A stretch of DNA of 64,000 nt from Henriciella aquimarina (GTDB lineage: Bacteria; Pseudomonadota; Alphaproteobacteria; Caulobacterales; Hyphomonadaceae), in contig NZ_NCST01000041.1 in NCBI RefSeq assembly GCF_002088975.1, positions 1 through 64,000 of the forward strand, written 5' to 3'. Position 1 is the stretch's first letter; each line of letters opens with the position of its first letter. The notes under the pieces are model-generated. The model saw only the letters and a list, made by a program, of their open reading frames with translations, was not told the DNA's origin and did no database searches. Of this stretch, positions 3,907 to 7,750 are shown piece by piece. Position numbers and translations under genes: made by a program.

Positions 3907-4070
3907 ATTCGAATCCTGATCTTCCTGTGAGCTGGAATATGGGGCATGCCTTGCCGCGAATCCAGTTAGGCTAGGGCTCACAATATCTCAAGCGTACCGT
4001 CAAGCTTTCGCCTCATCTTGTCGCGGTCGGCACAGCGGGTACGCAAGCCATCAAAACCGGGAGAGCAGCC
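3907..4070. promoter_or_regulatory. Divergent promoter region with two GANTC sites
   Basis: This 164-base gap separates NDUFA12 (leftward) from the NrdJ-like gene (rightward). It must hold promoters for both, but I cannot place convincing -35/-10 boxes. Two GAATC sequences (3911-3915 and 3958-3962) fit the CcrM methylation motif GANTC used by Caulobacterales and relatives. Two sites 47 bases apart is only a modest enrichment. GGGAGA lies 6 bases before the ATG at 4071. Confidence 0.4.
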
Positions 4071-6338
4071 ATGCCCCGCACACAGAAAAGCGATGCCCTT
4101 CTGACAGCGGCGATCGAAGCAGGCCATATCAGCCCCGTCGTGCGGCTCGACCGGCTGGTCTCCCTGCCTGCCGCCATTTCGCACGCATCGGACGAGGCGC
4201 TGCAGCAGGCCATCAACGAGCGCGAGAACCTCGAACTGGCCAAGCGCACAACGCTCGGCCTGGCCGATCTGGTCGAACAGCTTGGCCCCGCACCCAAGAA
4301 TGCCGAACTGGCCGAAGCGATCCTGTCCGGCCTGCCTGTGCCGCTGGTCGAAGCGGGCCTGCAGGACCCGGAAGGCTTTTCCGGGCTGGAGCGCCGGCTG
4401 CGCCAGAATGCGATGGCTGAAAGCCCCGCCCGGCCTGTGGCGGTGCCGCCCTCCGCTTTCGAGGCCGAAGCCGCTCTCGTCTCCGACGCCCGCCATACCG
4501 GTATTCCCGTGTGGGTCGGGGAGAGCCCGGCCTTCGCCCCGAATGCGCAAGCGATTGCTGTCGATCTGTCGAGCTTTGTAAGCGAGGACGGCTTCGACAC
4601 CGACCTGCTCGCCAAGACCATCGGGGCGGCGGCCGCCACGCTGGACGAAGGCGAGACGCTGACTGTGCTCGCTCACGGCCTCATGGCCGGAGCCCTGTCC
4701 CTGGCTGCACAGGGCGAACCCAGTCTCGCCAAACGGGCCGCTGCGCTGCTCGCCTGCCTGTCGGCGATCTCCAGTGGCGAAGCCCTTACCAAGACCGATG
4801 CCGCACGCCTTGGCCTTGCGACCGAGACCGACCTTTCCCCCAACGGACCGTTCCACATCCTGATCGCTCCGCTGAACGCACATGCCGATCATGACTTCCT
4901 GCCCGCCAGTGACGGCCTCTCAGGCAAATGCACCATGACGCTCACCGATGAGGACGGCGCCCTGTCGCTGTCGCCCGCCGCCAGGCTGATGCTTGCCGGC
5001 ACACCGGACGTGCTTGCCAGCATGGAAGACGGGCTGGCGTCGGTCTGCGATCTCGACCGCCTGCCGGCCATCAACACAGAGACCCTGCGCCTGCGCGGCT
5101 TCTCCGATGAAGCGATCGCGCGCGTCAGCAATGCGATTCGTGAAGGCCTGCCGCTCAGTGCCGCCTTTTCGCGCTGGGTGATCGGCGATGATGTTATTGG
5201 CGGTAATCTGAAGCTGTCCCCCGATGCCTTCGACACGAACGGCCATGCCCTGCTGAACGCGATCGGTTTTGGCCGGGATGCCATTGAAAGCGCGGAAGCC
5301 GCCCTGGCCGGCGCGGGCGAAGCGGCTGTGCGCGCCCATCTCGAACAGGAAGGCTTTGCCCTGCCCGACGATGCGAGCTTCGTGCTGGAAACCGCCCGGC
5401 TTGCCCGCAAGCACGTGTCCGGCGCCATCGTCGTGGACGGCAGCGACTGGGCCACCGACATGGCCAGCACCGCCGCCGAAGCCGGCCTGTCTGTCCTGCT
5501 CAGCGCCGCGCCGGACGGTCAGAGCGCAGAGACGAGTGACCGGATGGGCGCCATTCTTACCCTTGTCGAGGACATGGCCGAAGAGGTCTCCCAGGAAGAA
5601 GCGGCCACGGCGCCGTGGCCCGTGCAGCAGGGCGCCCAGCGCACCCGCCTGCCGGACCGGCGCAAGGGCTATATCCAGAAAGCCACCGTCGGCGGCCACA
5701 AGGTCTACCTGCACACGGGCGAATTCGATGACGGTGCGCTCGGCGAGATCTTCATCGACATGCACAAGGAAGGCGCGGCTTTCCGCTCGCTGATGAACAA
5801 TTTCGCCATCGCCGTTTCGCTTGGCCTGCAATATGGCGTACCACTGGACGAATATGTCGATGCTTTCGTCTTCACCCGGTTCGAACCGGCCGGCGAAGTC
5901 ACTGGAAATGACCGCATCACCAAGGCGACGTCCATTCTCGACTACCTCTTCCGTGAACTCGCCATCTCCTATCTCGCCCGCGAGGACCTCGCCGAGATCG
6001 GAGAGGATGTCAGCCATGACGGTCTCGGCCGCGGGCTTCAGGATGGCACGCGCCAGAGCCCTCAGCCGCTGCCGGAAGAGGCTGTCCAGTTCATCTCGCG
6101 CGGCTTCTCCCGGGGCCAGCTGCCGGACAATATCGTCATTCTCGACCGCAAACGCGCCGAACGCGAGGAAGCCGGAGCGGAATCAGATGAGACAGCGGCA
6201 GAAACAGACGACCCGGATTATCTGCCCCAGCCCTGCCCCAGCTGTTCCAGCTTCACCCTGATGAAGCTGCCGGAGGAAGACACCGTCCACTGCGAGACCT
6301 GCGGCGAAGAAACCGCACCGGAGAGCCTGTTCAACTAG
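4071..6338 (+). CDS. Diverged NrdJ-like protein lacking the ribonucleotide reductase core
   Basis: 755 residues. From about residue 525 to the end it closely matches the C-terminal part of adenosylcobalamin-dependent class II reductase NrdJ as I recall it: [82 protein letters not shown] zinc ribbon follows (C722xxC725, C741xxC744). The first 500 residues only faintly echo NrdJ ([11 protein letters not shown] near 365-375; [18 protein letters not shown] near 231-248). NrdJ is usually about 1,200 residues; the catalytic barrel and its active-site cysteines are not recognisable. It is intact and codon use matches its neighbours, so it is probably a kept non-catalytic paralogue. Its function is unknown. 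Confidence 0.8.
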
Positions 6339-6406
6339 GGCGCATTGGCAAGCCGATTGCGACGCCGGGAGCTGAGCCTCGCTCAGTGCACACAAGGTGT
6401 CCCATT

Positions 6407-6895
6407 ATGAAACACGTCGTCATTGCTCTCGCCCTGATCACTGCCAGCCTCCCGGCAACCGCGCAGGATGCAACCGAGATTGCCCGCGTCCAGGGCGGCC
6501 AGTCCTGCCCCGGCTGCAATCTGTTCCAGGCCGAACTGGCCTATCGTGATCTCAAGGGCATCGATGTCTCCGGCGCCCGGCTGCGCCAGTCTGACATGCA
6601 GCTGTCGACCTTCGACGACTGGAACCTGTCCAACACCAATCTCTCCATTGCGAACATGTTCGGTGTCCGCTTCAACCGGTCGGATTTCACCGGCGCCAAC
6701 CTTCAGCGGGCCACCATGGTCGGGGGTTATTTCGGCCGCTCGAGCTTCAAGAACGCCGATCTGACAGATGCCAACCTGTCTGGTGCCGACCTGTCGCTGG
6801 CCCGCGACCTGACTCAGGCCCAACTCGACACAGCTTGCGGCGATGAAGAGACCCGCCTGCCAAAAGGCCTGACGATTGCTCACTGCGCAGGCTAA
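6407..6895 (+). CDS. Exported pentapeptide-repeat protein with cysteine caps (paralogue 1)
   Basis: 162 residues from the ATG preceded by AAGGTG at 8 bases. The signal peptide is MKHVVIALALITASLPATAQ. After SCPGC (C34, C37), pentapeptide repeats of the A(D/N)LXX type run from about residue 38 to 138, for example GANLQ, NADLT, DANLS, GADLS. The end carries C144 and C160. Such repeats fold as a right-handed quadrilateral beta helix. The cysteines flank both ends and may form capping disulfides in the periplasm, which is inference. The next gene is a longer paralogue with the same cysteine plan. The function is unknown. Confidence 0.88.
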   Translation: MKHVVIALALITASLPATAQDATEIARVQGGQSCPGCNLFQAELAYRDLKGIDVSGARLRQSDMQLSTFDDWNLSNTNLSIANMFGVRFNRSDFTGANLQRATMVGGYFGRSSFKNADLTDANLSGADLSLARDLTQAQLDTACGDEETRLPKGLTIAHCAG

Positions 6896-6997
6896 CCCTG
6901 CCCCGTGGTGCAGCGTTTTGGCAACACCTGTGACAAGACTGCAGTTATTACCGGGATTTCAGTTCTAGCGAGGCGGTGAGCGCCATACATTGGGCCC

Positions 6998-7750
6998 ATG
7001 CTTGATAGAAGCTTGAAAAGACTTTTCGCAGCCTCAGCGCTGCTGGCTTGCCTCCCGGCGGGCCACGCCATGGCCCAGGACGGCTCTACCCGTGTCGCAT
7101 GGGCGCCCTCTTATGGCGGCTCCTGCGAAGGATGCGACATGCGCGGGCGCAACATGTCCGGCTGGGATGTCTCCAGCGCCAATTATCCGCGTGTCAATCT
7201 GTCCGGCGCCCTGCTGCGCGGGACACGTGCACTTGAGGTCGATTTCTCCAACATCAAAGCCCGGCAGACCGACTTCCGTCAGGCTGTGCTCGATGGATCG
7301 AAATTCCCCGATGCCCAGATGCCTGACGCGCGCTTCGACAAGGCGAGCCTTCTGAACACCGACCTGTCGCGTACCATCATGACCGGCGCAAAGCTGCATG
7401 GCGCACGGCTCAACGGTGCCACACTGCGCCAGGCAGACCTGTCACAGGCCAGGGCCCGCGGAGCTGACTTTTCCGGGGCCAACGCCTCCGGCGTCATCTT
7501 TGACGGCGCGGATCTGACCCGGGCGCAATTCAACAATGCGGTCGTCAGCGGGGCTTCGTTCCGCCAGGCGGATCTCGATGACGCCAACTTCTCGCATGTC
7601 CGCCTGATGGCGGTAGACTTCACGCAGGCCGAAGGGCTGGAAACAGCCATTTTTGATGGCGCCTGCAAGGACACACTCACCATCCTACCGGAAAGCGTGA
7701 CGGTCGAGAGCTGCACGCCGGAAGGCTCGCTGCTGTCCAAGCTGCAATAG
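6998..7750 (+). CDS. Exported pentapeptide-repeat protein with cysteine caps (paralogue 2)
   Basis: 250 residues. The signal peptide runs to about AMA-Q27. SCEGC (C43, C46) precedes roughly 17-18 pentapeptide repeats (about residues 48-220: VNLSG, TDFRQ, ADLSQ, ADFSG, ADLTR, ADLDD). The end has C223 and C239, spaced exactly as C144 and C160 in paralogue 1, within similar text (LPESVTVESC versus LPKGLTIAHC). It probably arose by tandem duplication with repeat expansion. It lies 102 bases after paralogue 1 on the same strand. A hairpin terminator follows at 7781-7808. The function is unknown, probably periplasmic. Confidence 0.88.
   Translation: MLDRSLKRLFAASALLACLPAGHAMAQDGSTRVAWAPSYGGSCEGCDMRGRNMSGWDVSSANYPRVNLSGALLRGTRALEVDFSNIKARQTDFRQAVLDGSKFPDAQMPDARFDKASLLNTDLSRTIMTGAKLHGARLNGATLRQADLSQARARGADFSGANASGVIFDGADLTRAQFNNAVVSGASFRQADLDDANFSHVRLMAVDFTQAEGLETAIFDGACKDTLTILPESVTVESCTPEGSLLSKLQ

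Follow-up and report, generated by a model that had tools for sequence, protein, structure and literature searches.

Reductase pseudoenzymes, in which catalysis has been lost but the subunit has been kept, are known among the R1 homologues of betaherpesviruses and in yeast Rnr4. They resemble the protein described here in being reductase subunits retained after the loss of catalysis, and differ from it in class (class I), in hosts, and in the part that was retained. Within class II, the NrdJb chain of the split reductases (Pseudomonas aeruginosa type, and viral open reading frames) combines an IscU-like domain with a zinc ribbon, and that chain has no working barrel. For the NrdJ of S. nassauensis, the accessible text of PMC5704485 proposes cysteines 920, 923, 936 and 939 as zinc ligands and 933 and 945 as a redox pair; zinc content dropped for three of the four proposed ligands, electron transfer required all six cysteines, and the tail was involved both in electron transfer and in the dATP/dGTP-induced formation of higher oligomers. 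As of 2022, according to the accessible part of PMC9669993, the IscU-like domain found in class II reductases had no reported role. Pairs of NrdJ, of which only one has the tail, are described from a few Alphaproteobacteria in the accessible text of Loderer et al.; these are a different case from the tail-only genes considered below, for which a search of the open PMC library found no prior description. In Caulobacter crescentus, PMC6538847 (accessible text) assigns CCNA_01966 to nucleotide reduction under the name NrdJ, and PMC5869019 (accessible text) calls it a B12-dependent reductase. For the same bacterium, PMC12186491 presents a strain deleted for nrdR together with measured dNTPs, and PMC13001252 an ordered transposon library.

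The window (the whole stretch of 64,000 nucleotides of DNA that was analysed) carries, at 4071-6338, a genuine gene descended from the class II reductase NrdJ. Its features are as follows:

3980..4026 (boxes at 3980-3995 and 4011-4026), no strand assigned: weak, possibly decayed NrdR box pair, not significant (p 0.022 with a working consensus, p 0.085 with the nrdA matrix)
4059..4065, forward strand: GGGAGAG, resembling a ribosome-binding site, seen in the upstream sequence and ending 5 bases before the ATG
4071..6338, forward strand: NrdJ-derived pseudoenzyme of 755 residues (open frame; PRK07562 match far under the cut-off; conservation in relatives)
4194..5003, forward strand: decayed reductase barrel, residues ~42-311, without active-site cysteines (profile chain; active-site columns without cysteine)
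5040..5378, forward strand: NrdJ insert in the barrel end, residues 324-436, model positions 738-850 (PRK07562 on residues 1-520; column conservation)
5640..5990, forward strand: IscU-like / TSCPD domain, residues ~524-640, almost as in true NrdJ (Pfam; columns; dN/dS)
6234..6302, forward strand: zinc ribbon, residues 722-744, with four proposed zinc-ligand cysteines kept and two proposed redox cysteines absent (sequence comparison; cysteine roles from the accessible text of PMC5704485)

The window protein shares with NrdJ (PRK07562) its neighbourhood at some true loci, the insert, the IscU-like domain, and a ribbon with four of the six cysteines; unlike NrdJ, it lacks the active-site cysteines and the redox pair of the ribbon, its barrel is decayed, and it is 755 rather than ~1220 residues long. 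Compared with NrdJb, which it matches in the absence of a working barrel beside the two tail modules, it has no redox pair, it retains the NrdJ insert along with a decayed barrel, and no NrdJa was detected in its genome.

An intact frame of 755 residues and a ribosome site had both been claimed by an earlier first-pass annotation of this DNA, and both were confirmed. The NCBIfam model PRK07562 for alphaproteobacterial B12-dependent reductases has 1222 positions and a curated cut-off of 1737 bits; the whole protein scored 310.7 bits against it, and some full-length NrdJs of the order likewise score under that cut-off. The best-matching stretch was residues 520-709 (model 965-1151), and Pfam placed TSCPD at 536-631 (E 3e-10), which bears out the proposed resemblance of the tail to the C-terminal region of NrdJ. 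No Pfam match to the catalytic barrel (PF02867) was obtained. When residues 1-520 were searched alone, as the annotation had suggested, PRK07562 directly matched the insert, at 324-436 (model 738-850; E 5.8e-15).

Compared directly with the true barrel, residues 1-322 align over a short stretch of 49 columns (score 37.7, shuffled maximum 21.3), and a two-step profile chain was therefore used. Residues 42-311 of the window type matched the N-terminal part of longer tail-only proteins with a score of 94.4, the highest among 30 column shuffles being 17.6; this N-terminal part in turn matched the true NrdJ barrel with a score of 226.1 (shuffles no higher than 20.5). PF02867 itself can still recognise the barrel relic: of 18 tail-only genomes searched, 5 gave a match, with E from 3.7e-6 to 1.3e-18. 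Judged by these profiles, the first ~320 residues are a worn-down barrel and not a novel domain. The annotation was right that the working core is missing from the first ~500 residues; it needs one correction, in that the decayed barrel and the insert can both be detected there.

Two sets of relatives were compared. The second was found by family profile and hand-picked from high-scoring rows. Conservation was measured over 509 columns whose conservation among 53 true NrdJs reaches 95% or more, and checked in 22 tail-only proteins of the first set, namely 8 of the window type and 14 others, the window protein being among the 22. Across the bins of the barrel, as far as position 740, the window type kept 3-12% of these columns and the other tail-only proteins 5-32%; the insert kept 52-54% at reference positions 741-800 and 30% at 801-860, and the barrel end (861-960) kept 12-22%. 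The ribbon region kept 35-42% in the 22 proteins and the IscU-like domain 94-100%, in a set that was itself found partly via a motif inside that domain and comprises the best 80 of at least 589 relatives. The second set agrees with the first on column conservation and cysteine pattern: its 40 tail-only proteins kept 6-24% of conserved columns in the barrel and 95.2% in the IscU-like domain.

Reference columns 199, 476 and 487 are those which we take, from other class II enzymes, to hold the thiyl-radical cysteine (NPCSE) and the active-site redox pair. None of the three holds a cysteine in the window protein or in 21 relatives, most cells being gaps, and the absence of active-site cysteines that the annotation had reported is real. 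So is the paired-CxxC zinc ribbon, which lies at residues 722-744. The six-cysteine C-terminal array of NrdJ is incomplete in it, with four kept and two lost; in 21 of 21 tail-only proteins with a complete tail, C1, C2, C4 and C5 are kept and C3 and C6 lost. The kept cysteines correspond to the proposed zinc ligands of S. nassauensis and the lost ones to its proposed redox pair, so that the losses fit lost reduction, not a lost module.

The same division runs through both sets. Of the 58 proteins of the first set that bear NPCSE, two are truncated at contig ends and the remaining 56 show the six-cysteine ribbon; among the 22 without NPCSE, 21 have the four-cysteine ribbon (L063 included) and one is cut. 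In the second set none of the 40 tail-only proteins has NPCSE, and 39 of them have the four-cysteine ribbon, the exception being L119, which lacks a ribbon altogether; all nine full-length NrdJs have the six-cysteine ribbon, eight with NPCSE and one (L089) with SPCSE, so the motif is not absolute. Across 57 tails no invariant or near-invariant cysteine lies inside the IscU-like domain, the conserved cysteines being the four of the ribbon.

At L063:2-2119, on a contig of Brevundimonas UBA2388, an intact barrel half is joined to a four-cysteine tail. It is classed as lacking NPCSE only because the contig starts after the motif, and its two halves overlap in a conserved domain; it is as likely to be a recombinant, or a chimeric contig, as an evolutionary intermediate. 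We counted L063 among the 22 loci without NPCSE for ribbon and neighbourhood, left its row ungrouped in the tree, and kept it out of the column and profile comparisons. The reverse loss was observed on the minus strand at L097 (genome G198), where a 902-residue NrdJ frame has the barrel and the six-cysteine ribbon without the IscU-like domain; no match to that domain was found elsewhere in the G198 genome.

Selection was estimated from ten pairs of relatives, the window protein being in none. The dN/dS ratio was 0-0.081 for the IscU-like domain, 0.064-0.462 for the barrel relic and 0.081-0.307 for the insert region; for the remainder, including the ribbon, it was 0.066-0.479 in nine pairs, silent sites being saturated in the tenth. 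The IscU-like domain is under far stronger constraint than the barrel relic. The values for the relic indicate that it too is partly constrained, so that selection extends beyond the tail. The earlier view of an NrdJ descendant that was retained although its core no longer works, with the tail as the selected part, is upheld, and we are highly confident that the 755-residue protein does not act as a reductase and owes its retention mainly to the tail.

The full-length structure model had a mean pLDDT of 74.8, with the IscU-like part at only about 52-67, and the tail model reached 80.1. Foldseek found no PDB match at E<=0.001 for the full-length model and no significant one for the tail; the assignment of an IscU-like fold therefore rests on sequence and the literature. 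The comparison of predicted structures that the annotation had called for did not clarify the origin of the barrel. Class I reductase chain 5im3_B had the highest probability (0.21) among the 50 rows listed, too weak to be accepted. The tail model gave three matches at E<=0.001 in a viral structure library, all phage reductase proteins or pieces of them, and the tail sequence profile returned nothing reliable against solved structures.

How widely the gene occurs was surveyed in 299 genomes of the order, each genome being assigned to a class, by hand, on the best E-value it gave against PRK07562; for most tail-only genomes, nearly all of f1 among them, that value is the whole basis of the class. 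By best match, 204 genomes were tail-only, 76 had full NrdJ and 19 were other. The window's own family (f1) was tail-only throughout (61/61). No full NrdJ was found in f2 (56/60 tail-only, 4 with partial or no match) or f3 (54/60 tail-only, 6 with partial or no match); f4 was mixed (33 tail-only, 18 full NrdJ, 8 neither); and f5 had full NrdJ in 58 of 59 genomes, a few of them cut by contig ends and one with an internal stop, the remaining genome having no match. From their place in the tree, f2 and f1 would be Caulobacteraceae and Hyphomonadaceae, respectively. A few relatives (e.g. G093, G260) have a stop inside the PRK07562 match. The check on conservation across the order thus shows the tail-only state to be clade-wide and old, not local. 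Among the matches listed, a full NrdJ and a separate tail-only protein never occurred together in one genome. The IscU-like domain was searched for in 16 of the 299 genomes and gave no match in 13, nine of which are at least 94% complete (G198 included), so that lineages can do without it. In one genus of f4 (g18), eight of nine genomes (G019, G024, G029, G098, G108, G118, G168 and G292) gave only NrdA-level matches, with no IscU-like domain in the four of them that were searched; the ninth, G252, has a full NrdJ.

NDUFA12 lies in the flank, mostly directly adjacent, at 19 of the 22 loci without NPCSE and at 21 of the 58 with it, and a true NrdJ of Robiginitomaculum (L022) has almost its whole neighbourhood in common with tail-only loci. 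Since these neighbours are shared with some true NrdJ loci, the tail-only gene occupies the ancestral nrdJ locus. In a tree of 69 tails, three rows of which have long branches, 42 tail-only rows fell on one side of a branch with 100/100 support; the tree agrees with a single origin of the tail-only form and falls short of proof.

The genome of the window (4.34 Mb, 99.99% complete) has as its sole detected reductase-barrel (PF02867) gene a class I-type NrdA of 623 residues, which ends in CLACQ and so has a C-terminal CxxC of its own. One NrdB and an NrdR were also found; searches found no full NrdJ, NrdJa or NrdD, and no second copy of the 755-residue protein. A full-length nrdJ elsewhere in the genome had been a point to check for the suggestion that the protein binds NrdJ or acts as its decoy, and with none found that suggestion has lost its support. 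No ATP-cone was seen in NrdA (Pfam) or NrdB (by eye), which makes NrdAB the obvious candidate for a partner. A barrel gene was looked for in 21 genomes (18 tail-only, three with full NrdJ), and every one has an NrdA-like gene; its presence in the three with full NrdJ means that a class I reductase alone does not explain the bare tails. In addition to the NrdA-like protein, an extra reductase-barrel protein is encoded in G137, G001, G053 and G057 (loci L125, L126, L127 and L131), the frames being 582-784 residues long.

NrdR boxes were scored first with a consensus taken as a working assumption, and then with a matrix trained on nine nrdA promoters chosen with that consensus (9 of 22 scored at least 19; the other 13 fell below, perhaps because start positions were guessed). 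In this genome, NrdR-like boxes occur in pairs at both nrdA and nrdB, at a distance of 31-32 bases, which corresponds to the usual spacer of 15-16 bp (PMC12051234, accessible text). The pair upstream of 4071-6338 is a relic at best. By the matrix, pairs precede the tail-only gene in 26 of 26 f2 promoters, at p 0.005 each, the lowest value reachable with 200 shuffles, and in f3 at six of nine loci at p<=0.01 and eight of nine at p<=0.05. None of the 25 loci of f1 (0/10) and f4 (0/15) reached even 0.05, so that the link to dNTPs is not general; with the working consensus, four f1/f4 promoters (the window, L008, L019 and L015) had p 0.016-0.026. Among 361 real windows from 35 f2 and f3 loci, 28 scored at least 18, each of them its own locus's promoter score, and the best other window scored 13.9. 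NrdR-type operators therefore precede the tail-only gene in the Caulobacteraceae-type relatives. Many f2 loci are close relatives (L023 and L100 are near-identical), so 26 promoters are not 26 independent events, and because 21 of 52 true NrdJ promoters also reach a score of 18, the boxes may simply have been inherited.

The reading that we rank first, at a probability of about 0.4, is that the gene is an orthologous, decayed NrdJ and its product a pseudoenzyme kept for a non-catalytic role of its IscU-like domain and zinc ribbon in dNTP control beside NrdAB. The events would have run as follows: NrdJ lost catalysis in an ancestor equipped with a class I reductase as well; the barrel then shrank and drifted, and the redox pair disappeared from the ribbon; the IscU-like domain and the presumably zinc-holding ribbon were retained under very strong selection, doing a job independent of the barrel. 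The likeliest such job would be non-catalytic control or assembly in dNTP metabolism, in which the tail may self-associate or bind a partner in a dNTP-dependent manner, as the same module does in cis in full NrdJ. Zinc binding, oligomerisation, a partner, and a dNTP role are what we infer for the tail-only protein; electron transfer is unlikely, since the redox pair is lost. A broader and more speculative extension, which we think doubtful, would make the class II tail an independent dNTP-responsive regulator that in Caulobacterales was freed to tune or assemble the class I reductase in trans.

The NrdR-type operators in part of the clade place dNTP control beside NrdAB first and an unrelated takeover next. 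By that second account, a quite conceivable one, the dead NrdJ was recruited outside dNTP metabolism, its IscU-like domain binding another conserved protein or nucleic acid, and the Caulobacteraceae boxes were merely inherited. The tail is conserved in f1 and f4 although no NrdR pair was found there, and boxes are common enough in true NrdJ promoters for inheritance to be possible; against this, the tandem boxes occur in every f2 promoter, though many are close relatives, and the tail residues that were kept are those kept in working NrdJ, which points to the old function of the tail.

NrdB is a metal-dependent subunit, and one is present in this genome, so that an IscU-like carrier of metal or clusters could help to load its cofactor. 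The domain is described as IscU-like in the accessible text of PMC9669993, but the same text finds most such domains to be without cluster cysteines, and here the domain has none of the conserved cluster-ligand cysteines expected of an IscU scaffold, conserved cysteines occurring only in the ribbon; we consider the carrier improbable.

Far less probable is a split-reductase subunit that passes electrons to the class I reductase in trans. The domain make-up does resemble NrdJb, and stand-alone frames with IscU-like domain and ribbon occur at 15 of 38 viral-contig loci; the 14 complete ones, however, carry six cysteines, whereas the proposed redox pair is missing in all 21 complete-ribbon proteins and from the second set (39 of 40 with four cysteines, the other without ribbon), no NrdJa was found in the genome, and NrdA has its own CxxC end. 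A decaying pseudogene is scarcely credible: the shrunken barrel, the genomes in which the gene was not found and the internal stops in a few relatives (G093, G260) would suit it, but frames are long and open at the loci examined and the IscU-like dN/dS stays at 0-0.081 with silent sites diverged. Equally hard to credit is a decoy or regulator of working NrdJ, or a B12 binder, for which the shared NrdJ tail speaks, since no NrdJ was found in the genome, no genome among the matches listed has both forms, and the barrel is decayed to a degree that would make B12 binding unlikely. Decoy, B12 binder, pseudogene and electron shuttle were all rejected on the evidence given against each.

CCNA_01966 is probably a tail-only NrdJ descendant, a view based on its relatives rather than on its own sequence: three named Caulobacter loci (L023, L028 and L039) are tail-only, none of 60 f2 genomes has a full NrdJ, and a Caulobacter vibrioides control genome falls below the PRK07562 cut-off, which alone is not decisive; L063, which comes from a Brevundimonas bin, may be an exception in Caulobacter's family. 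The printed assumption that CCNA_01966 is NrdJ would then probably be corrected. Under the broader extension described above, which we regard as rather unlikely, what is catalogued in Caulobacter as a B12-dependent reductase would be a so far unrecognised protein of dNTP control. Nature has here removed the enzyme and kept the domain, so that the role of the IscU-like domain can be tested by deletion in a model organism without touching catalysis, and G198 (L097), with barrel and six-cysteine ribbon and no IscU-like domain, offers the reverse case.

Some minor observations were made along the way. The stand-alone frames with IscU-like domain and ribbon on viral contigs (L188, L192, L195-L202 and L204-L208) are 208-267 residues long and NrdJb-like. 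In a viral-contig NrdJ (L212), a stretch that looks intein-like by eye interrupts the sequence around the active-site cysteines. In the window, positions 6386-7750 encode two adjoining pentapeptide-repeat proteins whose starts resemble signal peptides by eye; a relative of the second lies in the flank of 20 of the 22 loci without NPCSE.
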